From: Pseudorhodobacter antarcticus | Lineage (GTDB): Bacteria; Pseudomonadota; Alphaproteobacteria; Rhodobacterales; Rhodobacteraceae | Assembly: GCA_945860375.1 (NCBI GenBank) | Contig: CAMAQR010000001.1 | Span: 62,001-126,000, forward strand | DNA: 64,000 nt | Direction: 5' to 3' | Shown here: piece after piece, positions 18,575 to 64,000 of the stretch | Position numbering within the stretch: position 1 is the stretch's first letter | Layout: each line of letters opens with the position of its first letter | Translations under genes and position numbers: made by a program | The notes under the pieces: generated by a model | What the model was told of the DNA's origin: nothing | Database searches by the model: none | The model's input: the letters and a program-made list of their open reading frames with translations, nothing else

Positions 18575-18602
18575 TCTGCCCAAACAAGTGGGGTGACCGT
18601 GC

Positions 18603-18827
18603 ATGACAACAGATATGATGCTTGTTCTTGGCCTCGTTATCTGTGCCCTGTCACTCCCCTCGTTGCTTTCTGCTTTTTCTGAAGGCCGTGCGCCGCGCGC
18701 AGGTGCGGTGTTGCTGCTGGTCGGCGGCCTCTTGCTGGTGATGGCGCTGACGCAGAAGCCATCCGGCTATACCTTTGCCGAAATTCCGCATGTGTTTGTC
18801 AGGGTCATCGCCGGGTTCCTGAACTAG
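18603..18827 (+). CDS. Small two-helix membrane protein (74 aa)
   Basis: 74 residues with two hydrophobic helices (about 5-24 and 33-50) joined by a short basic loop, EGRAPRAG. I do not recognise a family function. The start at 18603 is preceded by GTGGGGTGACC. It follows pyk in the same direction and ends just before a good promoter for rpmI, so it is probably the last gene of the pyk transcript. Confidence 0.65.
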   Translation: MTTDMMLVLGLVICALSLPSLLSAFSEGRAPRAGAVLLLVGGLLLVMALTQKPSGYTFAEIPHVFVRVIAGFLN

Positions 18828-18830
18828 GGC

Positions 18831-18859
18831 TTGCACCTTCGCCCGCGCCCCCCTATAGC
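18831..18859 (+). promoter_or_regulatory. Sigma-70 promoter of rpmI-rplT
   Basis: TTGCAC (18831-18836), a 17-base spacer and TATAGC (18854-18859). The -35 is one mismatch from consensus and the spacing is ideal. It lies about 70 bases before the rpmI start, leaving a short leader. infC, which often precedes rpmI, is not here, so a dedicated promoter makes sense. Confidence 0.65.
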
Positions 18860-18930
18860 GACCACTCGAATACCCCGCAGTGCTGGCCAACGTGGCATGC
18901 CAAGCACCGCCTGAAACCATGGAGATGGAA

Positions 18931-19131
18931 ATGCCCAAGATGAAGACCAAGTCGGCGGCGAAGAAGCGTTTCAGCTTCACGGCCTCCGGTCGGGTGAAAG
19001 CCGGCGTCGCCGGCAAACGCCACGGCATGATCAAACGTACGACGAAATTCATTCGCGACGCGTCCGGCACCATGTTGCTGAGCCCGTCCGACGCGAAGAT
19101 CGTCAAGAAATACATGCCCTACGACCGGTAA
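18931..19131 (+). CDS. rpmI: 50S ribosomal protein L35
   Basis: 66 residues, highly basic, starting [15 protein letters not shown] as in nearly all L35 proteins. An in-frame extension upstream to 18880 is open but is not part of the family; the ATG at 18931 has GGAGATGGAA in front. It is 12 bp before rplT, its usual partner. Confidence 0.97.
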
Positions 19132-19143
19132 GGAGAGCAACCG

Positions 19144-19506
19144 ATGTCCCGCGTTAAATCCGGCGTTGTAACGCACGCCCGTCACCGCAAGGTGATCAAG
19201 AAGGCGGCTGGCTATTACGCCGCCCGCTCCACGAACTTTCGCACAGCAACGCAGGCCGTTGATAAGGCCCAGCAGTATGCGACGCGCGACCGTAAGAACC
19301 GCAAGCGCAACTTCCGCGCCTTGTGGATCCAACGGATCAACGCCGCCGTGCGTCTGTTCGATATCGAATTCACCTACTCGCGCTTCATCAACGGCCTGAA
19401 CCTGGCCGGGATCGAAGTGGACCGCAAGGTTTTGGCCGATCTGGCCGTGCATGAGCCTGAGGCGTTCAACGCCATCGCAGCGCAGGCCAAGGCAGCTTTG
19501 GCGTAA
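19144..19506 (+). CDS. rplT: 50S ribosomal protein L20
   Basis: 120 residues, basic, with the L20 opening [17 protein letters not shown] and the core [15 protein letters not shown]20 is needed early in assembly of the large subunit and in some bacteria represses its own operon; no such leader structure was established here. It ends 18 bp before a strong intrinsic terminator. Confidence 0.97.
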
Positions 19507-19524
19507 GCCTGACGACATGACCGG

Positions 19525-19560
19525 AAAAGCCCTGCCCTTCGTGGTGGGGCTTTTTCTTTT
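19525..19560 (+). terminator. Intrinsic terminator after rplT
   Basis: AAAAGCCCTGCC (19525-19536) pairs with GGTGGGGCTTTT (19543-19554) over 12 positions including two G-U pairs; the loop is CTTCGT. The run TTTTTCTTTT follows immediately. This is a textbook Rho-independent terminator. Confidence 0.9.
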
Positions 19561-19628
19561 GGTGGTCCCGCTTGCAAATCCAACCCTTGCCCGCTAGCAC
19601 AAACCCCGCAGGAATACCGGAGAGTGCC

Positions 19629-20711
19629 ATGGACGCCGCAGACACGCTGAAGGCCAAATATCTGACCGCCATTGCCAATGTGGCAGACGAGGCTGGCCTT
19701 GAAGATCTGCGCGTGGCGGCTTTGGGCAAGAAGGGCGAAATTTCTGTCCTCATGGCCGGTCTGGGCAAGATGGAACCAGATCAGCGCAAGGTCATGGGCG
19801 CCATGCTCAACGTGCTGAAGGACGAAATCGACGCCGCTTTGCGCGCCAAGAAGGCGGCTTTGGGCGATGCCGCGTTGAACGAGCGCCTGCGCTCGGAATG
19901 GCTGGACGTCACGATGCCCGCGCGCCCGCGCCGTCAGGGCACCATTCATCCGGTCAGCCAAGTGATGGAAGAACTGACTGCCATTTTCGCCGACATGGGT
20001 TTCGCGGTGGCCGAAGGGCCGCAGGTGGAATCTGATTGGTACAATTTTGACGCCTTGAACATCCCACCGGAACACCCGGCGCGGCAGGAACATGACACGT
20101 TCTTCATGAACCGCGCTGACGGCGACGACCGCCCCCCGCATGTGCTGCGCACCCACACCAGCCCGGTGCAGATCCGCGCCATGACCGAACAGGGCGCGCC
20201 GATCCGGGTGATTGCCCCCGGTCGCGTCTACCGTATGGATATGGACCAGACGCATACCCCAATGTTCCATCAGGTTGAGGGTCTGGCGATTGATCGCGAT
20301 ATCAGCATGGCCAATCTGAAATGGGTGCTCGAGGAATTCTGCCGGGCGTTTTTTGAAGTGCCTTCAGTCGAACTGCGGTTCCGCGCCTCTCACTTTCCCT
20401 TTACCGAACCTTCTGCCGAGGTGGATATTCGTTGTTCTTGGGAAGGCGGTCAGCTGAAGATCGGTCAGGGCGACAAGTGGATGGAGATTCTGGGCTCGGG
20501 CATGGTGCATCCCAAGGTGCTGAAAGCCGCGGGCGTCAATCCCGATGAATGGCAGGGCTTTGCCTTTGGCATGGGGATCGACCGGATTGCTATGCTGAAA
20601 TACGGCATCCCCGACCTGCGGGCATTTTTCGAGTCTGACCTGCGTTGGCTGAAGCACTACGGCTTTGCAGCGCTGGACATGCCGGATCTGGCGGGCGGTC
20701 TTTCAACGTAA
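19629..20711 (+). CDS. pheS: Phenylalanine-tRNA ligase alpha subunit
   Basis: Catalytic alpha subunit of the alpha2beta2 synthetase that charges tRNA-Phe. 360 residues. N-terminal coiled-coil region, then class II aaRS motifs: [19 protein letters not shown], the Phe-binding region [11 protein letters not shown], and motif 3 [14 protein letters not shown]. The ATG at 19629 has CCGGAGAG upstream; a longer frame from 19572 enters the rplT terminator. It is separated from pheT by 345 bp that carry a small gene on the opposite strand. Confidence 0.96.
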
Positions 20712-20743
20712 GGCAGGACTTAACCAGCCTGTTTGCGATCCAG

Positions 20744-20899
20744 TCAACCAGCCGCGCCCGATGCCAAAATCTGCGCGGCCTGAACAAACTGCTGCGCGAC
20801 CATGATGAACAACATCAAGGTCAATCCCAGCAAGACGCAAAGGCGGCCTACATTCAGGCGCTTTCGGCCCTTGGGTATGTCAAACATGGGGTCCATCAT
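20744..20899 (-). CDS. Small single-helix membrane protein (51 aa) between pheS and pheT
   Basis: 51 residues: a charged N-terminus (PKGRKRLNVGR) and one transmembrane helix (about 20-40, VLLGLTLMLFIMVAQQF), then a short tail. Start codons at 20899 and 20896 (ATG ATG), or 20887, are possible. The codon use and the clear positive-inside helix make a real protein likely, but I do not recognise it. It lies antisense within the gap between the two Phe-tRNA synthetase genes. Confidence 0.6.
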   Translation of the reverse strand: MMDPMFDIPKGRKRLNVGRLCVLLGLTLMLFIMVAQQFVQAAQILASGAAG

Positions 20900-49044: not shown

Positions 49045-49512
49045 ATGCTTGATTCCGTTGACGTCACGGCCCGGGTTGGGGAAATTCTGAACGCCCACAA
49101 AGCGATGGAGGGTCCGCTCCTGCCCATCCTGCATGCCATTCAGGTAGAATTCGGCTATATTCCGCAAGCGGCCCTGCCGGTGATAGCCAAAGGGCTGAAC
49201 ATTTCGCGTGCCGAGGTTCACGGCGTCGTAACTTTCTATCACGACTTCCGCGAAACCCCGGCTGGCGCGCATGTGATGAAGCTTTGCCGCGGCGAGGCCT
49301 GTCAATCGGTGGGTGCCGATCACGTCGCAGCATATGCCCAAAAGGCGCTGGGGGTCAGTTGGCACGACACCTCCAAGGATGGCCTTGTGACGTTTGAACC
49401 CGTGTTTTGTCTTGGTTTATGCGCCTGTGGCCCGGCGGCGATGGTTGATGGCAAATTGATTGGCCGCGTTGATGAGGCCCGGATTGATGCGATCATCGGA
49501 GAGTTGAAATGA
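49045..49512 (+). CDS. fdsG: NAD-dependent formate dehydrogenase gamma subunit
   Basis: 155 residues, a NuoE-like thioredoxin-fold protein. Its [2Fe-2S] ligands are two Cys in LCRGEACQS and two in CLGLCACGPA. It passes electrons within the soluble Mo-FDH complex. It is the first gene of the operon; its stop overlaps the next start by 4 bp. Confidence 0.94.
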   Translation: MLDSVDVTARVGEILNAHKAMEGPLLPILHAIQVEFGYIPQAALPVIAKGLNISRAEVHGVVTFYHDFRETPAGAHVMKLCRGEACQSVGADHVAAYAQKALGVSWHDTSKDGLVTFEPVFCLGLCACGPAAMVDGKLIGRVDEARIDAIIGELK

Positions 49513-51035
49513 AGATTTACCTCCCGCTCGACAGTGCTGCAGTCGCCCTTGGTGCCGATGAAATCGCCGACGCCATCATAGCAGAAGCCGCATCCAAAGG
49601 CCTTAGCCTGACACTCGTTCGCAATGGATCACGCGGTATGGTCTGGCTGGAACCGCTGGCCGAAGTGGAAACTCCCGAAGGCCGCGTTGCATTCGGCCCG
49701 ATGACGCTCGCGGATGTATCTGGCCTGTTTGGCGATCTGACACAGCACCCCAAAGCCTTGGGATTGACAGAAAATCTGCCGTGGCTCCGTGCCCAGACCC
49801 GGCTGACTTTTGCCCGCGTTGGCGTCATTGATCCGCTTTCCTTAAGTGAATACAAAGCACAAGGCGGCTTGTCGGGTCTTTCCCGCGCTTTGACCATGGA
49901 CAAGGCCGCCATTGTCGCCGAAGTCACCGCCTCTGGCCTGCGCGGTCGTGGCGGCGCTGGATTTCCGACGGGCATCAAATGGAAAACCGTGTCCGAGGCG
50001 CCAGCAGACCGCAAATACATCGTCTGCAACGCCGATGAAGGCGATAGCGCCACCTTTGCCGACCGTATGTTGATGGAGGGCGACCCTTTCACACTGATCG
50101 AGGGCATGGTGATCGCAGGGCTTGCGACTGGGGCCACGAAAGGATTTGTGTACATCCGTTCAGAATACCCAATCGCGATTGAGGTGATGCAAAAAGCTGT
50201 GGCATTGGCCAAAATCGATGGATTGCTCGGTGCGTCTGTTTTGGGCATCGGCCCTGCCTTTGACATCGAAATCCGTGTCGGTGCGGGGGCCTATGTTTGT
50301 GGGGAAGAAACCAGCCTTCTCAACAGCTTGGAGGGCAAGCGCGGTGTGGTTCGCGCAAAGCCGCCTTTGCCCGCGCTGGAAGGCTTTATGGGCAAGCCGA
50401 CCGTGGTCAATAACGTCATTTCTCTGGCGTCGGTGCCCGTTATTTTTGAAAAGGGCGCCGAACATCACCAGAATTTCGGCCATCGCCGCTCACGCGGCAC
50501 GATCCCGCTGCAGATCGCTGGGAACGTCAAGTACGGTGGCCTGTTCGAGGTGGCCTTCGGCCTCAGCCTCGCTGAAATCGTTGATAGAATTGCCGGAGGC
50601 ACTGCATCCGGTCGCCCGGTGAAGGCCGTGCAAGTTGGTGGACCGCTTGGCGCCTATTTTCCACGGTCTTTGTTCGATACGCCATTTTGTTACGAAGAAT
50701 TCGCGGCGAAGGACGGTATCGTCGGCCACGCTGGGCTGACAGTCTTCGACGATAGCGCTGATATGCTGAAGCAAGCCCGTTTTGCGATGGAGTTTTGTGC
50801 GATCGAGTCTTGCGGGAAGTGCACTCCCTGCCGGATTGGGGCCGTGCGCGGTGTCGAAACCGTGGATCGAATCGCAAAAGGTGATGCATCAGCAATTCCG
50901 CTTTTGACCGATCTTTGCGCCACCATGAAAAGTGGATCGCTGTGCGCCTTGGGTGGCTTCACACCCTATCCTGTGATGTCCGCGCTGACACACTTCCCTG
51001 ACGACTTTAATACGACAAAGGAAGCTGCCGAATGA
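49509..51035 (+). CDS. fdsB: NAD-dependent formate dehydrogenase beta subunit (diaphorase)
   Basis: 508 residues, NuoF-like with an N-terminal thioredoxin-like extension. FMN/NADH site GRGGAGFPTGIKWK, YVCGEETSLLNSLEG, and the [4Fe-4S] motif SCGKCTPCRIG are intact. It transfers electrons from formate oxidation to NAD+. It overlaps fdsA by 4 bp. Confidence 0.95.
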   Translation: MKIYLPLDSAAVALGADEIADAIIAEAASKGLSLTLVRNGSRGMVWLEPLAEVETPEGRVAFGPMTLADVSGLFGDLTQHPKALGLTENLPWLRAQTRLTFARVGVIDPLSLSEYKAQGGLSGLSRALTMDKAAIVAEVTASGLRGRGGAGFPTGIKWKTVSEAPADRKYIVCNADEGDSATFADRMLMEGDPFTLIEGMVIAGLATGATKGFVYIRSEYPIAIEVMQKAVALAKIDGLLGASVLGIGPAFDIEIRVGAGAYVCGEETSLLNSLEGKRGVVRAKPPLPALEGFMGKPTVVNNVISLASVPVIFEKGAEHHQNFGHRRSRGTIPLQIAGNVKYGGLFEVAFGLSLAEIVDRIAGGTASGRPVKAVQVGGPLGAYFPRSLFDTPFCYEEFAAKDGIVGHAGLTVFDDSADMLKQARFAMEFCAIESCGKCTPCRIGAVRGVETVDRIAKGDASAIPLLTDLCATMKSGSLCALGGFTPYPVMSALTHFPDDFNTTKEAAE

Positions 51036-53908
51036 AAGATTTCATCATTCCCGATCGCGATTTCGGCACTCCTGCTGCCAAATCCAAACAAATGGTCACC
51101 TTGACCATCGACGGCTTCAACATCACCGTGCCAGAGGGCACATCGATCATGCGTGCGGCGGCTGAGATCGGGATTTCCGTACCAAAACTATGCGCCACAG
51201 ACAGCATTGACGCCTTTGGATCCTGCCGCCTATGCCTTGTCGAAATTGAAGGGCGCAATGGTACCCCAGCCTCCTGCACCACTCCCGTTGCGCCAGGGCT
51301 TAAGGTCCACACCCAGAATGCAAAACTGAAGCAACTTCGTCGCGGCGTGATGGAGCTTTACATCAGCGATCATCCACTTGATTGCCTGACCTGTAGCGCC
51401 AATGGAGATTGCGAACTGCAAGATATGGCGGGCGCGGTAGGTCTGCGCGACGTGCGATACGAGGCTGTCGAAACCCATTTCAAGGCCAAGGACACTTCGG
51501 GTATTGCCAATCCGCACTACATTCCCCGCGATGATTCAAACCCCTATTTCAGCTACGATCCGCAGAAATGTATTGTTTGTTCCCGGTGTGTCAGGGCCTG
51601 CGAAGAGGTTCAGGGCACATTTGCTCTGACCATCGAGGGTCGCGGTTTCGAGAGCCGAGTGTCGTTCGGGGCCAAGACGGACACCGCCTTGACATCCGAC
51701 TGTGTGTCCTGCGGTGCCTGCGTACAAGCCTGCCCCACCGCAACGCTGCAGGAAAAGTCGATCATCGAAATTGGCACCCCAGAACGCTCTGTCATCACAA
51801 CCTGCGCCTATTGCGGTGTCGGCTGCAGCTTCAAAGCCGAAATGCGCGGCGATGAACTGGTGCGAATGGTGCCCTACAAGCACGGCAAGGCAAACAGGGG
51901 CCATTCTTGCGTGAAGGGCCGGTTTGCCTACGGTTATGCCAGCCACAAAGATCGCATCCTGAATCCAATGATCCGCGACAACATCAACGACCCGTGGCAG
52001 GAAGTGTCATGGGACGAAGCGATGGCGTTCACAGCCAACCGGATGAAAGGCATCATAGCAAAGCACGGCCGGCATTCGGTGGGCGTTATTACGTCGTCGC
52101 GCTGCACGAATGAAGAGGCCTATCTTGTGCAGAAGCTGACCCGTGCGGTGTTTATGAACAATAATACAGATACCTGCGCCCGCGTGTGTCATTCGCCCAC
52201 CGGCTATGGGTTGGGCCAAACGCTGGGCACTTCGGCAGGGACGCAAGATTTTGATTCTGTTGAGCAAACGGATGTCGTGATCGTCATAGGTGCCAATCCG
52301 ACTGACGGCCACCCAGTGTTTGCAAGCCGTTTGAAGAAGCGTCTGCGCAAGGGAGCGAAGCTGATCGTCATTGACCCACGCCGCACTGACATCGTGGAAA
52401 GCCCGCACATCAAAGCAGCGCATCATCTGGCTTTGACCCCGGGCACGAACGTGGCGATTGTGACAGCACTGGCGCATGTAATTGTGACCGAAGGTTTGTA
52501 CAATCAGACTTTCATCCAGGAACGCTGTGATTGGGATGAATTTCAGGACTATGCCGAATTTGTCAGCCAAGCTCAAAACTCCCCCGAAGCGGTGGAATTT
52601 CTGACCGGAGTCAAAGCGGACGAGGTGCGCGCCGCGGCCCGGCTCTACGCGTTGGGCGGCAATGGCGCCATCTACTACGGTCTTGGCGTTACAGAGCATT
52701 CTCAGGGCTCGACGACAGTGATCGGTATCGCAAACCTGGCGATGTTGACTGGTAATATTGGCCGCCCCGGCGTCGGCGTGAACCCGTTGCGCGGGCAGAA
52801 CAACGTGCAGGGGTCTTGCGACATGGGCTCTTTCCCCCACGAGTTGCCAGGCTATCGACACGTCAAAGGCGCAGAAGTGCGTGAGATCTTTGAGTCTGTC
52901 TGGGGCGTGAAGATTGACAACGAACCTGGCTTGCGCATCCCAAACATGTTGGATGCCGCGGTTGAGGGCACGTTCAAGGCGCTCTATTGTCAAGGTGAAG
53001 ACATCCTGCAATCGGACCCTGACACCAAACACGTCGCAGCTGGTTTGGCCGCGATGGACTGCGTGATTGTCCACGATCTCTTCCTGAACGAGACGGCAAA
53101 TTACGCGCATGTGTTCCTGCCCGGCTCCACCTTTCTTGAAAAGGAAGGAACGTTCACAAATGCTGAGCGCCGCATCAACAGAGTGCGCAAAGTGATGGCG
53201 CCGAGAAATGGTTACGCTGATTGGGAAGTGACGCAGTTGCTGGCAAACGCTATGGGCGCGGGTTGGACCTACACGCACCCATCGCAGATCATGGATGAAA
53301 TCGCTATGACAACGCCGTCATTCGCGGGTGTTACCTATGATTTGCTGGAGGAAAAAGGGTCTGTTCAATGGCCCTGCAATGCATCGGCTCCGAATGGTAC
53401 GCCATTGATGCACGTCGATGCCTTCGTCCGTGGCAAGGGCAAGTTCATCAACACTGAATATATCGCGACGGACGAACGGACTGGCCCGCGCTTTCCACTT
53501 TTGCTGACCACCGGGCGAATTTTGTCGCAGTACAACGTCGGAGCACAGACCAGGCGCACCGAGAACGTCGTATGGCATGACGAGGACCTGTTGGAAATTC
53601 ACCCTCACGATGCCGAAGTGCGTGGCGTCAAAGATGGCGACTTTGTGCGACTCGCGAGCCGGTCCGGTGACACCTCGCTGCGGGCCACGATCACTGATCG
53701 TGTCAATCCAGGCGTGGTTTACACCACATTCCATCACCCCGACACGCAGGCAAACGTGATTACGACTGATTATTCGGATTGGGCCACCAACTGCCCCGAG
53801 TATAAAGTAACGGCCGTTCAGGTTTCCCCCAGCAATGGGCCTTCGGAATGGCAATCCGAGTACTCAGCGCAAGCCACAAAGTCTCGCCGGATCGCGGCAG
53901 CCGAGTGA
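51032..53908 (+). CDS. fdsA: NAD-dependent formate dehydrogenase alpha subunit (Mo-bis-MGD, Cys type)
   Basis: Catalytic subunit oxidising formate to CO2. 958 residues. In order: an N-terminal ferredoxin-like [2Fe-2S] domain (KLCATD, GSCRLCLVE), a NuoG-like Cys/His cluster segment, a two-cluster ferredoxin pair (CIVCSRCVRACEE, CVSCGACVQACPT), the [4Fe-4S] CAYCGVGC, and the large MGD domains. The molybdenum ligand is Cys, not selenocysteine: ARVCHSPTGYGLG, with no in-frame TGA. The His next to it is the usual proton acceptor. Codon use looks a little lower in GC than nearby core genes. Confidence 0.96.
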   Translation: MKDFIIPDRDFGTPAAKSKQMVTLTIDGFNITVPEGTSIMRAAAEIGISVPKLCATDSIDAFGSCRLCLVEIEGRNGTPASCTTPVAPGLKVHTQNAKLKQLRRGVMELYISDHPLDCLTCSANGDCELQDMAGAVGLRDVRYEAVETHFKAKDTSGIANPHYIPRDDSNPYFSYDPQKCIVCSRCVRACEEVQGTFALTIEGRGFESRVSFGAKTDTALTSDCVSCGACVQACPTATLQEKSIIEIGTPERSVITTCAYCGVGCSFKAEMRGDELVRMVPYKHGKANRGHSCVKGRFAYGYASHKDRILNPMIRDNINDPWQEVSWDEAMAFTANRMKGIIAKHGRHSVGVITSSRCTNEEAYLVQKLTRAVFMNNNTDTCARVCHSPTGYGLGQTLGTSAGTQDFDSVEQTDVVIVIGANPTDGHPVFASRLKKRLRKGAKLIVIDPRRTDIVESPHIKAAHHLALTPGTNVAIVTALAHVIVTEGLYNQTFIQERCDWDEFQDYAEFVSQAQNSPEAVEFLTGVKADEVRAAARLYALGGNGAIYYGLGVTEHSQGSTTVIGIANLAMLTGNIGRPGVGVNPLRGQNNVQGSCDMGSFPHELPGYRHVKGAEVREIFESVWGVKIDNEPGLRIPNMLDAAVEGTFKALYCQGEDILQSDPDTKHVAAGLAAMDCVIVHDLFLNETANYAHVFLPGSTFLEKEGTFTNAERRINRVRKVMAPRNGYADWEVTQLLANAMGAGWTYTHPSQIMDEIAMTTPSFAGVTYDLLEEKGSVQWPCNASAPNGTPLMHVDAFVRGKGKFINTEYIATDERTGPRFPLLLTTGRILSQYNVGAQTRRTENVVWHDEDLLEIHPHDAEVRGVKDGDFVRLASRSGDTSLRATITDRVNPGVVYTTFHHPDTQANVITTDYSDWATNCPEYKVTAVQVSPSNGPSEWQSEYSAQATKSRRIAAAE

Positions 53909-54708
53909 TGCAAGCCCACCGCCTTTTTCCGCGCCTGTCTTTTGGAACCGGCGCGGAACAGTCTGGCAGCCGTGCATTGCCAGAAGAAGTGGCGATCGCA
54001 TTGTCGTTCAATGGCAGCACGCAGGCGGTGATGATGGCCACGCCCACTGATCTGAGCGATTTTGCATATGGCTTTGCCCTGACCGAGGGCATCGCAAATC
54101 CGGGTGAAATTCAAAGCGTTGACGTTGTTGAAACCTCTTGCGGTCTTGACGTGCAAATCTGGTTGGACTCGTCTGCGGAAGCACGGCTTTCAAAGCGCCG
54201 ACGCACAATGGCGGGGCCGGTTGGCTGTGGGCTGTGCGGGATCGACAGCCTGGAAGAGGCCACGCGCAACCTTCCACCGGTACCCAAAAGTGCTTTCCGA
54301 ATGACTGCCCGCGACATCATGGCGACCATTGCATCGCTTCCCGGCTCACAACCCATGCACGATATCACGCGTGCGGTCCATGCTGCGGGGTTTTGGTCTG
54401 GCGCGCGGCTGACAACCCGAGAAGATGTTGGCCGTCACAACGCATTGGATAAACTGGCTGGCCATCTGATCCGAAACCCCCATCCGACCGGGGCGGTTTT
54501 GCTGACCAGCCGGGTGTCAATCGACATGGTGCAGAAGGTCGCGGTGCTTGGCCTGCCGATGATTATCGCCGTCTCTGCACCAACGGCGCATGCGGTTGAA
54601 ATGGCCGACGCAGCTGGAATAACGCTGATCGCCCAAGCCCGCGCTGACCGCTTTGAGGCCTACACCCACACCGACCGCATTGCCAAGGAGAGCGCCCATG
54701 TCGCATGA
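53908..54708 (+). CDS. fdhD: Formate dehydrogenase sulfurtransferase FdhD/FdsC
   Basis: 266 residues. Supplies the sulfur ligand on the Mo cofactor that formate dehydrogenase needs. The catalytic CxxC loop is GCGLCGID. Other family parts are DLSDFAYGFALTEGI and TREDVGRHNALDK. The ATG at 53908 overlaps the fdsA stop by one base. In fds operons this gene is often called fdsC. It overlaps fdsD. Confidence 0.93.
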   Translation: MQAHRLFPRLSFGTGAEQSGSRALPEEVAIALSFNGSTQAVMMATPTDLSDFAYGFALTEGIANPGEIQSVDVVETSCGLDVQIWLDSSAEARLSKRRRTMAGPVGCGLCGIDSLEEATRNLPPVPKSAFRMTARDIMATIASLPGSQPMHDITRAVHAAGFWSGARLTTREDVGRHNALDKLAGHLIRNPHPTGAVLLTSRVSIDMVQKVAVLGLPMIIAVSAPTAHAVEMADAAGITLIAQARADRFEAYTHTDRIAKESAHVA

Positions 54709-54934: not shown

Positions 54935-55291
54935 GGTTGGCGTCTTGCGCACGCAAGGTAAGTGACCATACCGGTCAAGAAACCGAAGGCGGCCACCGAT
55001 GTGTCAATCGCTTACTGTCAGCCTCGCTGACTGACGCGGCTCCCATACCTGACGCCCCAAATCGTGACCAACTGACAACACAAGTCAAGGCAACCGCTTT
55101 CAGCGACAGGCTTTCCTCCCAAGCCAATCTGCCTGTCACAATAGCACTTCGATCACCCGGTTCCGGGAAACCTTGGCCGCGACGCAGCGCCCGAAACGAG
55201 GACTTGAGCGAGTGTTCGGTTTGGCTTACGATTTCGAGATAGGATTTCGACTGCCATTTTTTAGACAATACTTTTTGGTGGGAAGCGTTTG
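54935..55291. other. Intergenic region after fdsD
   Basis: About 357 bp without a gene I accept. A short hairpin CTTGCG-CA-CGCAAG (54944-54957) lies just after fdsD. Near the right end TTGAGC (55204-55209), 17 bases, TACGAT (55227-55232) make a plausible promoter for the peptidase gene at 55292. A minus-strand frame (54975-55268) is open but has no family features. Confidence 0.45.
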
Positions 55292-56026
55292 ATGCGGAAT
55301 GTTGTTTTGCGCCCCGGTTCCTCGGGCCCTTTTGTTAGGGACATGCAACTGGCGCTGAACAGTCGGCTGAACCCAAGTCCAAATCTGGTTGTAAACGGCA
55401 TGATGACGGCCCAAACCCAGCAGGCGGTGCGTGCGTTTCAGCGCGCAAACTGGCTTGAGGAGGATGGTATCGCGGGTCCCTGTACCTTGGATGCGATCTA
55501 TAACACAGAAGCCGCTGCGCCCATCTTGCACAACGTTCCCTATTTCCCGCAGCCAACCGCGACAACCTGCTGGGCGGCGGCAACTGCCATGTTGAAAAGC
55601 TCAAGCGTCGGCTTGATCCGCATGGGAACGCCGCTGCGGCTCTTGAACGCGCAAGGGGCCTTGATCAATGAAAGTGAGCGTAGTGAAGGGCTTGCAGTGC
55701 ACCGCGCTTTCGCATTGATCCACGGCCTAACCTACCGGGCACCGCAATCCTGGCCCGTGGCGGATTTGATTGCGTTGCTGCAACGTGGTCCCGTGATGAT
55801 GGAATTGCTTTGGAATCCCAGCGCCTTTCGACGGGGGAGCGGCTCACCTGGACATTACGTTGTGATAGTAGGAGCCCGCGGGTCACATGCCCCCGATGGC
55901 AGCAGCACGACATTACGCATTTATGATCCCTTGCCAGACGATCAGGGCGTTGGGATGTACTCGGCCACATATTCAGCCATGCTGCGACGCGTCCCCTTGG
56001 CGACCTACGGCATCTTTTCGCGCTGA
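55292..56026 (+). CDS. Peptidoglycan-binding, papain-like (C70/AvrRpt2-type) cysteine peptidase
   Basis: 244 residues, no obvious signal peptide. Residues 1-70 form a PG_binding_1 domain (RPGSSGPFVRDMQLALN, QQAVRAFQRANWLEEDGIAG). The rest reads as a papain-like domain with a Cys93/His188/Asp212 triad in TTCWAAATAML, PGHYVVIVG and YDPLP, the pattern of the AvrRpt2-type C70 family. The start is the ATG at 55292, after a candidate promoter. It faces the NRPS gene across 42 bp. Whether it acts on peptidoglycan, on host proteins or on the cluster product is unknown. Confidence 0.8.
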   Translation: MRNVVLRPGSSGPFVRDMQLALNSRLNPSPNLVVNGMMTAQTQQAVRAFQRANWLEEDGIAGPCTLDAIYNTEAAAPILHNVPYFPQPTATTCWAAATAMLKSSSVGLIRMGTPLRLLNAQGALINESERSEGLAVHRAFALIHGLTYRAPQSWPVADLIALLQRGPVMMELLWNPSAFRRGSGSPGHYVVIVGARGSHAPDGSSTTLRIYDPLPDDQGVGMYSATYSAMLRRVPLATYGIFSR

Positions 56027-56068: not shown

Positions 56069-59000
56069 TCAGGCATCTGACCGGCCTGACCGCATCGCGC
56101 GACGCCGTGCCATAGCGTCAACGCGCGCGTCCGCCCGATCTGACATCATTGTGCTGGCAGCCATACCTTTGGGCCGGTCATCCAGATGAGCGGCCAATGC
56201 TCGCAGGGTCGGAAAGCGGAAGATATCGGTGATCGACAGTTTCGCCGCCCCAAGGCTGTCCCTGATCTCGCGATGCGCCTGCACTGCCAACAGGGAATGT
56301 CCGCCCAAGGCAAAGAAGTTGTCAGAGGCACCCACTTTTGAAACCCCCAAAACCCGGGCCCAAATCGCTGCAATCTGACTCTCAACATCAGAGGCAGTGG
56401 CAATAAATTCTTTCGTCTCCAACGAGGTGACAGACGGCGCGGGCAAGGCTTTGCGGTCCACCTTGCGGTTTGGGGTCAGCGGGAACACATCCAGCGTCAC
56501 AAAATGCGCAGGCAGCATATGGTCGGGCAAAGCTTTGGATAAGACGGCCCTCAGCCCAGTCTCATCTGCGGTTCCGGTCAGATAGGCCACCAGTCGAACA
56601 TCGCCCGGCACGTCTTCACGCGCCAAAACCACCGCCTGTTTTACGCCGGGCTGCTGTTCCAGCACGGCTTCAATCTCGCCCAACTCGATCCGATAGCCGC
56701 GCAGTTTGACCTGATGGTCCCTGCGCCCCAGAAAATCAATCCTGCCATCCGCCCGCCAACGCACCAAATCTCCGGTCCGGTACATGCGCGCACCCCAAGA
56801 CGCGGCTTGATCGTGTTTGACAAACGGATCATTCACAAACCGTTCCGCCGTCAAATCTGGCCGTTGCCAATAACCGCGGGTTACACTATGTCCCCCGATC
56901 CACAGCTCACCCGGCACGCCAGTTGCAACCGGATTCATCCTGTCATCGAGAACATACATTTGTTGGTTGGCCAATGGCTTACCGACGCTGACCGTGCCTT
57001 TCGGATCAGTCCCAACCTCTTCTGTGGATGACCAAATCGTCGTCTCGGTCGGCCCGTACATATTCGTAATGCGTGCTGCCGTTGCGACGCGGAGGTCCGA
57101 AACCAAAGCTGACGGCAGCGCCTCGCCGCCCAGCATGATGGCTTTCAGGTTCGCCAACGCCATTCGTGACTCATCATTCATTATGATCATTCGCGCCATC
57201 GACGGTGTGCATTGCAGATGGGTCACCTTGTGCCGAATGATCTGCGCCGCGATAGAGAAATCGTCCTCTGCGACACCGCCCCCCGCATTGGCGCGCTTGA
57301 CCACTTCGGCCAACGGATACAGCCCCTCCAGCACCTTTTCAGGTGCTATTCCGTAGTCAACCAGACAGGCAACCTCGGTGACGCCTATGCGTTTCAGTTG
57401 CTCAACGCGTGCCAAGGCATCCTCAACGGTGCCAAACAAGCCAGAGTCTTCAAAATAGCGCTGAAAGGCAAAGTCGAGGATCGCCGCAGTGTCCTCGACC
57501 GACAAATCGCGCGTGTCGATGTCCATGGGATTGGTGACGCCCGGCGGTTTTTTGAATGCCGGGAAGGCCCAGGCATATTGTTTGACCAAGGCCGTCGCAG
57601 CCCCCAAATAGGCCTTCATCGGCCCTTCGGCAGTCCGGCGCGCTTGTTCGCGATCTCGACCCACAAATGTGTGCAGCATCAAGGTCACAGTGAAGCGGGC
57701 GGGATCATGTCCGGCATCCACAAGTGATTGATGATAAATCTTTATCTTGCCAGCAACCTCGCCCATCGTTTGGCCCAAAAGATGTGTCAACACGTTGGCA
57801 CCGATCGCCCCGGCCTCGCGCCATGTCTCGGGATTTCCTGCCGTTGTCACCCAGATCGGCAGTTCTTTCGACACCGGACGCGGCTGCGTCACGACAGACA
57901 GCGTGCCATCTGCTGTCAGAAATTCAACCGCCTCTCCCCGCCACAGACGACGGATTTGCTCGGTCGCCGCAAACATCGCCTTCTTGTTGTTCGGCGGTGT
58001 ATTTTCTGGCCGCAGCACGAAGTCATCCGGGTGCCAGCCGGAGGCCACAGCCATTCCCGCACGACCGTTCGTTAAATTGTCGATCACCGCCCAATCCTCG
58101 GCGATCCGCGCGGGATGATGCAGCGGGACCACACAGGATCCGGCCCGCACCCCGATATTTTTCGTGACCGCCGCCACTGCAGCCCCCGTCACCGAAGGGT
58201 TCGGATAGGGACCACCAAAGGCGTGAAAGTGCCGCTCGGGCGTCCAGACTGCGCAGAACCCATGGGTGTCCGCAAACTTCGCACCTTCCAACAACAGTTC
58301 ATATTTCTTGGGTCCGACACCGTCGTCATTGCCCCAATAATACAGCGAAAACTCCATTTTCCGGGCAGAAGCGATCGGCCCGGCAGAAACGACCGCCCGG
58401 TTTTCATCGCTGGTCAGCACGACTTTGAATCCGCGGGCCAGTGTCCAGAACAACTCCAGCACTGAAATATCAAAGGACAGCGATGTCAGGGCCAGCCATA
58501 CCCCACCATCCGCACCAAGCCGCTGATCCATGCCAGCAAAGAAATTTGCCACATTGCGATGTTCAACCATGACACCTTTCGGTCGCCCAGTAGAGCCAGA
58601 AGTGTAGATCATGTAGGCCAGATCGGCGGGCGTGACTCCAGTGTCGGGATTGGCGCCGCTTGCCTCTGGTGGGCGGCCATCGGTGTCCAGGCACAGCATT
58701 TGGGCATTGTGCGCAGGCAAGGTTGTCGCAATACCAGATTGGGTCAATATCACCGCACAGGCGGAATCTTCGATGTAAAGCGCAATACGATCAATGGGAT
58801 AGGCCGGGTCCATAGGAACATAGGCACCACCTGCCTTTTGAACACCCAAAGCTCCGATGACCATTTCCAGACCGCGGTGAACGCAAAGACCCACCAGTGT
58901 TCCCGGGCGCACGCCCATGCCGACCAACACATGCGCAACCTTGTTGGCGCGGATGTTCAATTGCGCGTAGGTCAACGAAGCCTGTTCACAAACCAAGGCA

Positions 59001-60562
59001 ACAGCATCCGGGGTGCGCGCCACCTGCTCTTCAAACGCGGTATGTACACATGTATTCACAAATGGCGCGTTGGTTTGGTTGAAGCCATGCAGAACCAGTT
59101 CCCGCTCGGCATCCATCAACGTTGGCACAGTTGCCAGATCAGCCTCGAGCGGCAAATCCTGCATCCGGGCCGCAATATGTGCAATCCGAGTGGCGAGGGT
59201 CTGCGCTTCAACAACCGCCATCTTCGCGGCATCGTAGTGCAAAGCTGTCGGCGTCAGTGTCACCACGCTTCCCGGCAGCGGCCCGTCCTGCGACAGGCCC
59301 AGTTGCGGCATTTGCATCCCGGTCAGACCAACATCGCGGGTCATCAGATCAAGCGGAAATCCCGGCCCGGCTTTGTCCAGCGCAACGGCTGTGCGCGCAG
59401 CAGCCAAAGTGCCCGAGGCATCAACGCGCACGGGCACCCAAGCGCTGATATAACCCGGCAGCCCATGTCGTGACAGGGCCATATCCACCTGTCCCAGCCC
59501 CAAAGCCCGCACGCAGGCCAGCGCCAGAATGTCCAACTCCCCCAGCAGCGGCACAGAAGCCCAGCCCGTGCCCTGCCCCGAGGTAGCCTCGACGACGACG
59601 GGTTGCAACGCCAACAACGCCCGACGCAAGCCCGCCTCAAACGGCACAACGGCCGCCAAAGCTGCGGTCAAACCGGCGTCGATTTCCGGCAACATCTTTT
59701 GCGTCACTGTGCCCGGATGCACGGGCAAGCCTTTGATCTGGCATGTCAATTGCATCAGTCTTACGGCGCCATCGCCGCATGCGACAACCAAACCCGCGGC
59801 GTCCGCTGCCAAAACCGCACCCGGCGCCCCAGTGCCAGTCACCCGCTCCGCCGCACCCACATTCAAGACGCGATCCCCCGTCGCAATCTTGGCCGTACAC
59901 AGCGGATTCCAGTAGCGGCCATGGTCAAGCGCCCGCACCAACCGCAGCACTGCATCGACACCCGCTGCGAAATCGATCCGGCCCATCGCAGGCGGGCGAT
60001 CATGGCGCAAATACAGGCTACGCTGGGTCAAATCCTGCGGTTTGCGGGCCAGAACACCGCTTTCCAACTGGGTCAGCAGGGCCGGAAAGCTGTCAATCGC
60101 CGCCTCAAAGCAGCGCGTGTTCAGGGTCAGAGCGGTGTCATTGGGAGCAATGGCGAACAGGCGTTGCTCGAGAATATCCCCCGCGTCGATGCCCCCCGAC
60201 ATGATGTGCCAAGTGATTCCATGCCGGATCTCGCCGCTCAGAATTGCCCAAACCGGCGCGTTCAGACCGGCATAGCGCGGCAATGGGCCGTCATGAAAAT
60301 TCACCGCGCCTTTGCGGGCGCAGGCCAGAATCGCTTTGGGAATCACCGAAAGGTTCGCCACGGACAGCAGCCAATCGACCGAAAGCCCCGCCAGATCTGC
60401 ACCCGGGGCCTCAACACGCAGGCCCAGTGCCAACGCCCATTTGCGCACATCAACGTTGCGCGTGACCACGCAGGTCAGCCGATGGCCACGCGCCAAAACC
60501 ATATCGCCGCAGTGTTGCGTCAGGGATTCATTGCCGATCAGGATGGCGGAAAACTGGGTCAT
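56069..60562 (-). CDS. NRPS: formyltransferase - A domain with inserted luciferase-like monooxygenase - PCP
   Basis: 1497 residues. 1-300 is a methionyl-tRNA-formyltransferase-like domain with the catalytic Asn88/His90 in NFHDGPLPRYAG and Asp126 in GGIDAGDI. About 330-480 resembles a degenerate condensation-domain tail. An adenylation domain follows: A3 YTSGSTGRPKG (653-663) and the FDIS of A4 (697-700). Residues 734-1090 are an FMN-dependent luciferase-like monooxygenase (FSLYYWGNDD, VWTPERHFHAFGG) of the MupA/Atu3671 type. The A domain resumes with A5 YGPTET, YRTGDLVR and RGYRIELGEIE. A PCP ends the protein with Ser1423 in LGGHSLL. There is no C domain with HHxxxDG and no thioesterase. Confidence 0.9.
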   Translation of the reverse strand: MTQFSAILIGNESLTQHCGDMVLARGHRLTCVVTRNVDVRKWALALGLRVEAPGADLAGLSVDWLLSVANLSVIPKAILACARKGAVNFHDGPLPRYAGLNAPVWAILSGEIRHGITWHIMSGGIDAGDILEQRLFAIAPNDTALTLNTRCFEAAIDSFPALLTQLESGVLARKPQDLTQRSLYLRHDRPPAMGRIDFAAGVDAVLRLVRALDHGRYWNPLCTAKIATGDRVLNVGAAERVTGTGAPGAVLAADAAGLVVACGDGAVRLMQLTCQIKGLPVHPGTVTQKMLPEIDAGLTAALAAVVPFEAGLRRALLALQPVVVEATSGQGTGWASVPLLGELDILALACVRALGLGQVDMALSRHGLPGYISAWVPVRVDASGTLAAARTAVALDKAGPGFPLDLMTRDVGLTGMQMPQLGLSQDGPLPGSVVTLTPTALHYDAAKMAVVEAQTLATRIAHIAARMQDLPLEADLATVPTLMDAERELVLHGFNQTNAPFVNTCVHTAFEEQVARTPDAVALVCEQASLTYAQLNIRANKVAHVLVGMGVRPGTLVGLCVHRGLEMVIGALGVQKAGGAYVPMDPAYPIDRIALYIEDSACAVILTQSGIATTLPAHNAQMLCLDTDGRPPEASGANPDTGVTPADLAYMIYTSGSTGRPKGVMVEHRNVANFFAGMDQRLGADGGVWLALTSLSFDISVLELFWTLARGFKVVLTSDENRAVVSAGPIASARKMEFSLYYWGNDDGVGPKKYELLLEGAKFADTHGFCAVWTPERHFHAFGGPYPNPSVTGAAVAAVTKNIGVRAGSCVVPLHHPARIAEDWAVIDNLTNGRAGMAVASGWHPDDFVLRPENTPPNNKKAMFAATEQIRRLWRGEAVEFLTADGTLSVVTQPRPVSKELPIWVTTAGNPETWREAGAIGANVLTHLLGQTMGEVAGKIKIYHQSLVDAGHDPARFTVTLMLHTFVGRDREQARRTAEGPMKAYLGAATALVKQYAWAFPAFKKPPGVTNPMDIDTRDLSVEDTAAILDFAFQRYFEDSGLFGTVEDALARVEQLKRIGVTEVACLVDYGIAPEKVLEGLYPLAEVVKRANAGGGVAEDDFSIAAQIIRHKVTHLQCTPSMARMIIMNDESRMALANLKAIMLGGEALPSALVSDLRVATAARITNMYGPTETTIWSSTEEVGTDPKGTVSVGKPLANQQMYVLDDRMNPVATGVPGELWIGGHSVTRGYWQRPDLTAERFVNDPFVKHDQAASWGARMYRTGDLVRWRADGRIDFLGRRDHQVKLRGYRIELGEIEAVLEQQPGVKQAVVLAREDVPGDVRLVAYLTGTADETGLRAVLSKALPDHMLPAHFVTLDVFPLTPNRKVDRKALPAPSVTSLETKEFIATASDVESQIAAIWARVLGVSKVGASDNFFALGGHSLLAVQAHREIRDSLGAAKLSITDIFRFPTLRALAAHLDDRPKGMAASTMMSDRADARVDAMARRRAMRSGRSDA

Positions 60563-60577
60563 GTTACGCTCTTGCCC

Positions 60578-61576
60578 CTAAATTGGGCGGGTTTTGCCGG
60601 GGACAGCGCGCCCTCGGAACAGAGATTTCATCCCGGCGCGCAGGCCGTGCACCGTCAAGTCCAGCAAATAGCGGGGCGGATCACCCCGGTCTTTGTGCTG
60701 GATCAGCAGCCGGGCGCGCCACAAAAGACCACCCGCAATATGCGACAAAGTCGCCACGCAAGCATAAGCCCTGCCATGGTTTTTCACAAAATAGTGCAAG
60801 CGGCTGTCCAGCCAAAAGTTCGGAATCCGCTGCCATTCCTTCATCCCCGTGCTGGCCGAGCCGATGTGCACGACGCGGCTTTCCAGCACGTAATCGGTGG
60901 CCCAACCGGCCAGTGCGGCCCGCCGACAGAGATCTGTTTCCTCAAAATAAAGAAAAAATGTCTCGTCGAACAAACCGATTTGATCCAGCACCGTTTGCCG
61001 CATCATCAGGCTGGCCCCGGCCAACCAATCGACCGGCCCTGTCGCCTGTGGAATGGGCTGGGCGACGATTGATTTGTGCAAAACTCGGCTGACGGGGCCA
61101 AAACGGATTTGCGCTTCGAACTCGGCTGCGATCGACGGAAACCGGAACGCCGTGCGGTGCGCCTCGCCGTCCACGCCGCGAATACAACTGCCGGCAAACC
61201 CGGTTTTCGGATGCAGTTGCAGGTGCACCAGCAGGGCCGCGATCGCTTGCGGTTCGGGGAAAGCATCCGGGTTCAGGACATAGATGAAATCGGGTTTTGT
61301 CTCATCCGGCATCCCAGCACGGATACCAAAGTTGTTGCCTGCGCCAAAACCACCATTGCGTCCCGATTGCAGCACCCGTACCGCTTGCGGACCGGCGTCC
61401 CAACCGCGCGCCTGCACTTGGGTGAACATCCGTTCATACGACCCGTCGCCCGAGTCATTGTCCACAATCACCAGCGCACCTTCGATGCCGTCCAACGCCC
61501 GCAAGGCTGCCTCGGCCGCCTGCAGCGTCATCTCGGGTGAACGCCAGTTCAGAATGACCGTCAACAACCGCATCAT
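60578..61576 (-). CDS. Glycosyltransferase family 2
   Basis: 332 residues. GT-A fold with TVILNWRSPE at the start, VIVDNDSGDGS, the NGGFGAGNNFGIR block, YVLNPDA (DXD-like region), and EETDLCRRAALAGW. Most like GT2 rhamnosyl/mannosyl transferases. The ATG at 61576 overlaps the PKS stop by 4 bp and the stop is about 15 bp from the NRPS start, so it is part of the cluster operon and may glycosylate its product. Confidence 0.88.
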   Translation of the reverse strand: MMRLLTVILNWRSPEMTLQAAEAALRALDGIEGALVIVDNDSGDGSYERMFTQVQARGWDAGPQAVRVLQSGRNGGFGAGNNFGIRAGMPDETKPDFIYVLNPDAFPEPQAIAALLVHLQLHPKTGFAGSCIRGVDGEAHRTAFRFPSIAAEFEAQIRFGPVSRVLHKSIVAQPIPQATGPVDWLAGASLMMRQTVLDQIGLFDETFFLYFEETDLCRRAALAGWATDYVLESRVVHIGSASTGMKEWQRIPNFWLDSRLHYFVKNHGRAYACVATLSHIAGGLLWRARLLIQHKDRGDPPRYLLDLTVHGLRAGMKSLFRGRAVPGKTRPI

Positions 61577-64000
61577 TCTGCCGCCGTCGCAAAAGGAACC
61601 ACGCGCCCAAGTCCCTGCCCCGCGCCGCCTGCTTCGGCCAGCGTGATCACCGCACGCATCCGCGCGGCCAGCACCCGCACATTGGGTTCCAGCACCATCG
61701 AGTCGTGATCTCCGGGCACTTCGATCACCTCCAGCGCGGGCGCAAACTCTGTCAGGTCGTTGTCATCAAATACATATTCCCTGGCCCGGCTGACCCAACG
61801 GCCCCCCGTCACCGGCCAAGCCCGATCCAGGGGCGGGCGGAACAGCACCGTTGTGCCGGACCGCAGCGTCATCTGATACCCCGGCAAGGCCGCGCGGAAC
61901 GCCGCCTCAATCTCGGCATTGTGGAACTGCGCGTCGCCGGCATCGGCCACTTTGGGCGCACGCTTTTGCATCTCCCAAGCCCAACGCGCCTGCGCCCAAT
62001 TGAGCAGATAGCGCGGGCCGCGCGCGCGCAATTCGGCCCATTTGATCAGCGCCTTGTCCATCCGGGACAACGCAGGCCGCAGGGGCAGCGGCGTGTCCAG
62101 CAGCACCAGCACCGACACCACTTCGCCCACCGCCTCCAACTGCCGCGCCATTTCCCACGCGGTCAGACCGCCACCAGAAAAGCCGCCCAGCATATAGGGG
62201 CCTTGCGGCTGCACCTGCCGCAGTTCGGAAATGTAATCCTGCGCTGCCTCGGGCAAAGTCTTGTGAGGGGCTGCATCGCCATAAAGCCCGCGTGCCTGCA
62301 GCCCGTAGAAGGGCCGGTCGCCGCCCAAAAGCTGTGCCAGATGCCGCAGGTTCAAGACGTTGCCGAACATCCCTGCGACAAGGAAGAAGGGCTGACGCGC
62401 CCCACCCTCACCCTGATGCATCGGCACCAGATGGGTGAACCGCCGCACCGGAGCCTTGACGGGCGCATCCGCCATTGCGCCGATCTGCTCGACGATCAGC
62501 GCCGCACAACGGGCAATCGTCGGGGCCTCAAACAGCACCGAGATCGGGAAATCAACGCGGAACGCTTTTTTCACCATCGCAAACAGCCTTACAGCGATCA
62601 GACTGTGGCCGCCCAGATCGAAAAAGCTGTCCTCAACCCCCACCTGCGATACGCCCAGCAAATCTTGCCAAAAGCCAACCAGCGAACGCTCAATATCATT
62701 GCGCGGCTCGACATAATCCGTGTCCAGATCGGGGCGCGCAAAGCTTTGCCCTTCGGACCGCGCGGCCTCGGCCTCGGCGGTCTGGCGGATCAGGGCGGGC
62801 AGATCGAGCGACGACACGATCACCTGACTGCCGCCCACCGCCACCGCACGCGCAAAGGCTGCCGCCCCCTCGTCTGGCCGGATGCCCATGCTGAAGGCGT
62901 GCAAAAGCCGGTCCTCGGCGGCGGAGGTCGGCTTTGGGGCTGCGCCTTCGTCAAACGCCAACTCGCGCACTTCCGGTTTGGCAAAGGCCAAGGCCCCATC
63001 CAGCCGCCGGATCGAAAATCCCTCAATTTCCACGCAAACCGCGCCATCCGGTGTGGCAAGCGTCACGTCAAAGCGCGCAGTTGGATCGCTTGCCCGGTTC
63101 GGGCCAGCATTGCGCACCCATGAGACGACGGTCGCAGGCAGCCCCTGCAGCACGCGGAGGCGCGCGTATGACACCGGCACCCACAGATGATCAGGGCGGT
63201 AGCCCTCGATCAGCCCCATCGCCCAGCCCGTCGCCATATCCATCAGGGCCGGGTGCAAAATCCAACGCCCAGCCTCGGCAGCAAAGGCATCGGGCAGGCT
63301 TAACGTCGCCAACCCCTCTTGCGCCGCCAAAGCCCGCGACCGGATCACCCGCCAACGTGGTCCAAAGGTCAGATGCGCCTCTTGCGGACTGACCAAGCCG
63401 TCGCCGCGTTCGGGCACCGGCAAGCGCGAGGCTATCGCCGCCAGATCAATCCGACCCGCCCCGGCAACAGGCAAAATCCGTGCCTGTGCGTGCAATTGCC
63501 ATCCTTGTCGGCCCGCCACCGTCACGCCAGAGCGCAGTTCAAATTCATACCCTTCATCGCTGCGGACCAGACTCGCGCGAATATCACGCAGCTCCGTTTC
63601 CGCAATGTCCAAGGGCCGTAAAAAATACAGGTCCCACAGCTCAAATGCCCCGACCTCACCCTGCGTCCGCATCGCTTCGGCGGCGATTTCCACAATGCCC
63701 GTGCCCGGGATCAAGGCCTGTCCCGCCTTGGTGCGGTGCCCGTCCAGAACCCAGCGGTCGATGCCATAGCGCGCGATGAACACGCGGTTTCCGCTGGCAT
63801 CAAAGGTCGCCTCGTCCAGCATCGGCTGATCAAGCGGCAGGCGCGGCGCTGGCGGTCTGTCACCGATGCGGTCGGCCAAAGCCTCGGCGGCCATGCCAAC
63901 GCCCGTCCAAATTCCCCAGTTCAGCGCCAAAACCCGCGTCTGGCCCCCCGCCCGCGATTTGGCAAAAGCGTTCAGGAACTCATTCGCCGCCACATAGTCG
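61573..64000 (-). CDS. Polyketide synthase, C-terminal part (KR-DH-ACP-TE), 5' end outside window
   Basis: The last 809 or so codons of a modular PKS. The first visible residues DYVAANEFLNAF are the Tyr and Asn of a KR domain. A DH domain follows with LDGHRTKAGQALIPG and HPALMDMATG. An ACP carries the phosphopantetheine Ser in LGGHSLIAV, and a type I thioesterase ends the protein with GFSGGGLTAWE (Ser nucleophile) and a His near EVPGDHDSM. KS and AT domains, if present, lie beyond the right edge. The stop overlaps the GT2 start. Confidence 0.9.
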   Translation of the reverse strand, partial: DYVAANEFLNAFAKSRAGGQTRVLALNWGIWTGVGMAAEALADRIGDRPPAPRLPLDQPMLDEATFDASGNRVFIARYGIDRWVLDGHRTKAGQALIPGTGIVEIAAEAMRTQGEVGAFELWDLYFLRPLDIAETELRDIRASLVRSDEGYEFELRSGVTVAGRQGWQLHAQARILPVAGAGRIDLAAIASRLPVPERGDGLVSPQEAHLTFGPRWRVIRSRALAAQEGLATLSLPDAFAAEAGRWILHPALMDMATGWAMGLIEGYRPDHLWVPVSYARLRVLQGLPATVVSWVRNAGPNRASDPTARFDVTLATPDGAVCVEIEGFSIRRLDGALAFAKPEVRELAFDEGAAPKPTSAAEDRLLHAFSMGIRPDEGAAAFARAVAVGGSQVIVSSLDLPALIRQTAEAEAARSEGQSFARPDLDTDYVEPRNDIERSLVGFWQDLLGVSQVGVEDSFFDLGGHSLIAVRLFAMVKKAFRVDFPISVLFEAPTIARCAALIVEQIGAMADAPVKAPVRRFTHLVPMHQGEGGARQPFFLVAGMFGNVLNLRHLAQLLGGDRPFYGLQARGLYGDAAPHKTLPEAAQDYISELRQVQPQGPYMLGGFSGGGLTAWEMARQLEAVGEVVSVLVLLDTPLPLRPALSRMDKALIKWAELRARGPRYLLNWAQARWAWEMQKRAPKVADAGDAQFHNAEIEAAFRAALPGYQMTLRSGTTVLFRPPLDRAWPVTGGRWVSRAREYVFDDNDLTEFAPALEVIEVPGDHDSMVLEPNVRVLAARMRAVITLAEAGGAGQGLGRVVPFATAAE

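Follow-up and report, generated by a model that had tools for sequence, protein, structure and literature searches.

Gene and domain organization of the locus

We analysed a 64,000-nucleotide stretch of a 257-kb contig from Pseudorhodobacter antarcticus (CAMAQR010000001.1, positions 62,001 to 126,000), referred to below as the window. On its minus strand, at 56069-60562, an open reading frame (ORF) with an ATG start and no internal stop encodes a nonribosomal peptide synthetase (NRPS) of 1497 amino acids. Its Pfam domains are Formyl_trans_N (residues 55-157), Formyl_trans_C (192-273), two AMP-binding stretches (best 510-722), Bac_luciferase (752-1062) and PP-binding (1396-1460). The protein consists of an N-terminal formyltransferase (FT) domain, a condensation-domain remnant, an adenylation (A) domain with an inserted luciferase-like monooxygenase (MO), and a peptidyl carrier protein (PCP). 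Genes for a glycosyltransferase and a type I polyketide synthase (PKS) precede it on the same strand. These domains, their conserved motifs and the gene run are directly observed (Table 1).

Table 1. Features of the NRPS locus, in window coordinates
Feature	Position	Strand	Basis or remark
FT - C-lobe - A(MO) - PCP NRPS, 1497 aa	56069..60562	-	ORF, Pfam, NCBIfam
Formyltransferase domain, residues 1-292, triad N88/H90/D126	59687..60562	-	Pfam, ArnA/FMT fold match, triad
Condensation-domain C-lobe remnant, residues ~305-498, without HHxxxDG half	59069..59650	-	hhalign
A domain N-terminal part (A1-A4), residues 500-734	58361..59065	-	Pfam, motif positions
MupA/Atu3671-type luciferase-like MO between A4 and A5, residues 735-1090	57293..58360	-	TIGR04020, PuwE 6ket
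A domain C-terminal part (A5-A10), residues 1091-1375, code DILQMGMIWK	56438..57292	-	code mapping, motif positions
Peptidyl carrier protein, residues 1396-1460, GGHSL with Ser1423	56183..56377	-	Pfam, motif
Family 2 glycosyltransferase	60578..61576	-	start overlaps PKS stop by 4 bases; 15 bases to NRPS start
Type I PKS C-terminal part (ketoreductase end, dehydratase, acyl carrier protein, thioesterase), cut by window end	61573..63999	-	Pfam, L030 relative

The homologue search scored 7988 candidates, 1689 of them with E ≤ 1e-3. Its search words were taken from the first 500 residues, which biases it toward FT-bearing proteins. Among the matches listed, the FT, A, luciferase and PP-binding families are all present in 120 of 120 homologues (window protein counted), and because these share the whole domain set, a chance or frame artefact was dropped as an explanation. 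The active-site motifs are kept among the aligned relatives, and LgrA is the best PDB match for the protein as a whole. The NRPS is real, apparently intact, and widespread.

The formyltransferase domain and a condensation-domain remnant

The FT domain, in a structural model, matches ArnA and FMT in fold and scores higher against these two than against LgrA. The first-pass annotation, made from the window sequence, had described an N-terminal formyltransferase with intact Asn, His and Asp, and N88, H90 and D126 are indeed present. The motif with D126 occurs in 158 of 161 aligned rows, which are not independent since L and P rows can be one and the same protein; the exceptions (L039, L050 and L061) have no FT there. 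With an FT fold and an N/H/D triad fused to A-PCP, the domain would by its sequence qualify as an NRPS formylation domain. Another ORF, L061:8360-11932, encodes an NRPS that has an FT but no aligned MO, and its code, DLTKIGEVGK, is not of glycine type.

Residues ~305-497, blank in Pfam and overlooked in the first-pass annotation, match the C-lobe of a condensation domain (hhalign probability 98.6, E 5e-16, 13% identity). Of the 539 template columns, 199-465 are covered; the half with HHxxxDG is absent and the FT stands in its place. This call stands on hhalign alone, because only model residues 1-292 are spanned by at least one fifth of the fold-search rows. A relative (L050:8825-13147) is an NRPS with HHxxxDG and without the FT motif, partnered by a PKS of the same kind, and is apparently a C-A(MO)-PCP version of the enzyme. 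Set beside the FT-bearing relatives, it fits an exchange of one condensation lobe for the FT, in either direction.

Adenylation-domain code

A check of A-domain specificity, as the first-pass annotation had proposed, gave a code of glycine type: mapped on GrsA (1amu), the ten residues are DILQMGMIWK. Four glycine-activating domains with an inserted monooxygenase (MOX) are described as all carrying DILQLGMIWK (PMC12283262), to which the window code is identical at 9 of 10 positions. Among the 161 rows, DILQMGMIWK was found in 130, DILQLGMIWK in 23, DILQFGMIWK in 3 and DILQLGMVWK in 2, with DILQMGMVWK and DILQAGMIWK once each; the last row is the non-FT protein of L061, which has an unrelated code. 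The same code type appears in eight MO-bearing A domains from ORFs without an aligned FT (L039, L040, L041, L044, L045, L046, L047 and L050), although the L041 and L047 ORFs start at a contig end, so that preceding domains fall outside the sequence. The A domains without MO in L039, L040 and L046 have codes that differ from the glycine type. We infer from the code that the window A domain activates glycine.

The inserted monooxygenase and its likely chemistry

As first described, the MO splits the A domain between A4 and A5: A4 (FDISVLE) starts at residue 697, the MO at ~736, and A5 (NMYGPTETT) lies at 1167. TIGR04020 scores 463 bits over residues 738-1087 (cutoff 244) and covers model positions 1-340 of 341. 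The PuwE structure 6ket matches residues 735-1084 with 44% identity and a TM-score of 0.90 by target length, in agreement with the earlier limits of 734-1090. All 31 members of alignment A2 match TIGR04020 at E ≤ 1e-20, and the MO alignment (31 rows) contains many invariant positions. A module that merely loads formylglycine or hydroxyglycine, one of its catalytic domains being inactive throughout the family, is quite improbable; the module's activity is a prediction from sequence, but the FT motif is kept over 158 rows and the invariant MO positions extend over 31.

In the available accounts, related enzymes act at carbon. MupA hydroxylates the carbon alpha to an acyl carrier protein (ACP) thioester and requires a carrier-bound substrate and a reductase for flavin mononucleotide (FMN) (PMC10953402), and a 2-hydroxy group is attributed to the PuwE monooxygenase (PMC4219810). 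In the solanimycin pathway, alpha-hydroxyglycine is assigned to a glycine A domain paired with a flavin monooxygenase (SolF); in those of myxothiazol and melithiazol, the alpha-hydroxylated glycine is described as being cleaved afterwards into an amide and a glyoxyl thioester (PMC10204066). The glycine code and the alpha-carbon hydroxylation demonstrated for MupA and assigned to SolF favour N-formyl-alpha-hydroxyglycine over an N-hydroxy product. By this analogy, N-formyl-alpha-hydroxyglycyl-S-PCP, or its breakdown product, would be likelier than an N-hydroxy hydroxamate.

The first-pass annotation had read the enzyme as one that activates, hydroxylates (perhaps at nitrogen) and formylates an amino acid, giving an N-formyl-N-hydroxy hydroxamate as in siderophores. 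The domain set for the three steps holds, whereas nitrogen as the site of hydroxylation does not agree with alpha-carbon attack by MupA and SolF as described, and the glycine-type code speaks against the hydroxamate product; nothing was seen that points to a siderophore. A hydroxamate siderophore synthetase was set aside as a candidate, as such an enzyme would need an A domain specific for N-hydroxy-N-formyl ornithine or a related residue. An N-formyl-N-hydroxyglycine hydroxamate serving as iron ligand would be consistent with an FT and a monooxygenase in one protein, and the sequence gives no formal exclusion. We nevertheless regard it as very unlikely indeed, given the alpha-carbon hydroxylation shown for MupA and assigned to SolF, the glycine code, and the lack of a precedent in the portions of the literature consulted. 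No siderophore receptor or uptake gene appears in the incomplete gene tables (28 and 27 features) of the two plasmid stretches scanned, L070 and L071.

A doubtful alternative is a glyoxylyl starter. The N-formylated glycine would be hydroxylated, the carbinolamide would collapse with loss of formamide, and glyoxylyl-S-PCP would start the PKS; the role of the FT would be to let the nitrogen leave as an amide. The Gly-MO pairing is the same as described for myxothiazol and melithiazol, and the window code differs at one letter from that of MOX modules for which cleavage of the glycine backbone is described. Solanimycin B, however, is reported to retain hydroxyglycine (PMC10204066), and spending formyl-tetrahydrofolate to discard formamide would be costly.

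Proposed role as a polyketide loading module

The complete relative of the truncated PKS, in L030, is composed of ketosynthase (KS), acyltransferase (AT), ketoreductase (KR), dehydratase (DH), ACP and thioesterase (TE) in the order KS-AT-KR-DH-ACP-TE. The KS, AT, DH and TE motifs are mostly kept among the aligned relatives; the AT motif position reads AAHS, from which AT specificity is not confidently readable. The full-length NRPS occurs in 39 loci (38 with the FT motif, and L050), and the counts that follow refer to the fetched flanks. A PKS is present in 31 of the 39, on the same strand as the NRPS in 30 of these 31 and on the opposite strand in one; the NRPS gene comes first in 6 of the 31, L050 included.

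The reading we favour, by a modest degree, is that the NRPS is an F-A(Gly)-MO-PCP loading module that primes the PKS, the resulting acyl group being produced along with extracellular polysaccharide and perhaps joined to it. The A domain, judging from its code, would activate glycine and load it on the PCP. The FT would move a formyl group from formyl-tetrahydrofolate onto the glycyl amine, as suggested by its fold and triad and by the precedents of linear gramicidin and conglobatin. The MO, with reduced FMN from a separate reductase, would hydroxylate the alpha carbon of the tethered glycine, as expected from MupA, SolF and MtaG/MelG, the glycine-MO modules of myxothiazol and melithiazol. Formylation and hydroxylation could occur in either order. 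The KS of the PKS, whose gene lies immediately upstream, would then accept the N-formyl-alpha-hydroxyglycyl thioester as starter, and the PKS would extend it with beta-carbon reduction and dehydration before release by the TE. The final product would probably be an acyl group whose synthesis accompanies that of an extracellular polysaccharide, to which it may be attached.

Polysaccharide-type surroundings

Polysaccharide-type neighbours are found in about half of the relatives. Using classes assigned by ORF clusters, with generic glycosyltransferases counted, at least two such classes were present at 21 of 41 FT loci and at 0 of 25 other fetched loci; at least one was present at 25 of 41 and 1 of 25, respectively, the 25 being an imperfect control of other taxa, often on short contigs, that contains FT-family pieces (the fragments L026 and L031, and L052, a locus whose NRPS was missed by the ORF filter). 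When three Rhodobacteraceae loci (L001, L004 and L009) were extended, a chain-length-cluster ORF lay just past the original flank in all three. In L001, an ORF resembling the WecG cluster, which the cluster labels had overlooked, was seen as well. The L030 flanks contain a WecG-type glycosyltransferase above cutoff and a flippase above the Pfam cutoff, and a Devosia locus (L024) has export-, chain-length- and WcaJ-type genes, of which WcaJ alone is above cutoff. On named plasmids of Ruegeria and Paracoccus marcusii (L070 and L071), the PKS-glycosyltransferase-NRPS run lies amid glycosyltransferases; the P. marcusii plasmid adds a flippase, EpsE and a phosphopantetheinyl transferase (PPTase) near the run.

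These surroundings allow a more specific product to be suggested, tentatively. A polyketide acyl group made by the PKS and NRPS, derived from N-formyl-alpha-hydroxyglycine or, if formamide is lost, from glyoxylate, might be delivered to the extracellular polysaccharide. Its head, a masked aldehyde or an N-acyl-hemiaminal, could then form cross-links. Such polysaccharides would occur across many Rhodobacteraceae and sporadically in other groups.

Besides the imperfect control, several observations weigh against the proposed loading module and its link to polysaccharide. Glycine-type codes are also present in five ORFs without an aligned MO (L053-L057), and L059 has an FT and a similar code with no MO aligned; the code thus argues for glycine, and not for hydroxylation or the insert. 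An alpha-hydroxylated N-acylglycine may break down. The PKS gene lies ahead of the NRPS gene in 24 of the 31 loci, which is unexpected for a starter, although gene order need not follow chemistry. The substrates described for MupA and PuwE are acyl chains and not glycine. This would suit a formyl-glycine oxazole starter as in conglobatin or oxazolomycin, with the MO acting elsewhere, e.g., on the PKS chain, and conglobatin synthesis is itself proposed to start from an F-A(Gly)-PCP module that supplies a PKS (PMC4504003). We consider an oxazole starter improbable, since every aligned FT row has the MO inside a glycine A domain, as would fit action on the PCP of that module.

The association with polysaccharide genes likewise has gaps. 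No polysaccharide class was found in the flank of 16 of the 41 FT loci, and three of these 16 (L001, L004 and L009) gained such genes on extension. In the L030 flanks, the chain-length determinant match reaches 70.5 bits against a cutoff of 278.85 and the tyrosine autokinase match 69.1 against 230.65; an XrtA ATPase neighbour reaches 276.8 against 324.5. A genome search with TIGR03007 gave matches in 10 of 10 genomes, above cutoff in one, and also in 8 of 14 control genomes. In P. antarcticus, the genes upstream of the PKS lie beyond the window end and were judged from the relatives L001, L004 and L009 and the extensions L067-L069.

Other neighbouring genes

A PPTase-cluster ORF is in the flank of 23 of the 39 full-length loci and follows the NRPS in Leisingera (L012 and L051) and Epibacterium (L029) relatives; none is beside the NRPS in L001 or L004. 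Gene order as in the Leisingera loci was also seen in a record titled Nocardioides marinus (L014), a contig that may be mislabelled or contaminated. Directly adjoining the window NRPS on the opposite strand is an ORF with peptidoglycan (PG)-binding and papain-like C70 peptidase domains (55289-56026, +), which is not of the PPTase family. Further past the NRPS, also on the opposite strand, lies a formate dehydrogenase operon (49509-54708, +; alpha and beta subunits by eye, FdhD by Pfam), and formate dehydrogenase-family ORFs are likewise located past the NRPS in L001, L004 and L027. This proximity is perhaps mere shared synteny; formate may also be a formyl source or sink. In a Hydrogenophaga relative, a second NRPS near the cluster (L005:17946-24014) starts with a fatty acyl-AMP ligase-like domain. 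The conserved neighbour clusters 5, 7 and 12 (in 15, 13 and 10 loci; L030:3014-4507, 17361-18317 and 18272-20869) gave no match above cutoff in a Pfam search. The window gave no hits to Rfam at gathering scores or in a tRNA scan.

Relation to known systems and implications

The module resembles several known systems in part. The linear gramicidin synthetase LgrA, in which the A domain takes valine, also has an FT fused to an A-PCP initiation module and is among the first fold-match rows for the A-MO-PCP part of the window NRPS, but it has no MO. The loading modules CongA (conglobatin) and OzmO (oxazolomycin) share FT, glycine A domain and PCP and feed a PKS; the accounts consulted mention no inserted MO for them. 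With F, a glycine-type A domain, PCP and no intact condensation domain, the window NRPS has on paper the composition of an F-A(Gly)-PCP loading module. SolF and MtaG/MelG share the glycine A domain with a flavin MO acting on the glycine alpha carbon; they are described as acting on peptidyl- or acyl-glycine, whereas a formyl cap is expected for the window NRPS. Its A domain combines a glycine-type code and an MO, but where these modules have an acylating condensation domain the window NRPS has the C-lobe remnant only. Lacking the HHxxxDG lobe, it may work like a glycine-MOX module but is not a member of that group. MupA and the PuwE OX domain belong to the same monooxygenase family (TIGR04020); MupA works in trans on a polyketide (PMC10953402), and the PuwE domain lies beside an aminotransferase, between PKS and NRPS modules (PMC4219810).

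Genes for an NRPS, a PKS, a glycosyltransferase and a PPTase form a Roseobacter cluster that was reported in 28 of 57 genomes, its product uncharacterised as of 2015 (PMC4337385, citing Martens et al.). The window has the NRPS, PKS and glycosyltransferase genes adjacent; the PPTase belongs to the reported cluster. In the window, the gene past the NRPS is of the PG-binding/C70 family, and the upstream side extends beyond the window end. We take the two to be the same cluster by gene content and by the Leisingera and Epibacterium relatives, not by accessions. The examined parts of that account do not mention the FT, the inserted MO or polysaccharide genes, and we recognised no later account of the cluster, or one joining an FT and a luciferase-like MO with such a cluster, in the openly licensed literature.

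Each part of the enzyme is known. What appears new is the combination of a glycine-type A domain, a formyl cap and an alpha-hydroxylase in one loading module, beside polysaccharide genes in many relatives. The glycine-type code, formyl cap and inserted alpha-hydroxylase suggest a concrete first intermediate for the Roseobacter cluster, which had no assigned product in the 2015 account. From the polysaccharide genes nearby, that product may be expected in the exopolysaccharide fraction and not among free small molecules. If the proposal is true, formylation and alpha-hydroxylation on one tethered glycine would constitute a new type of starter unit.

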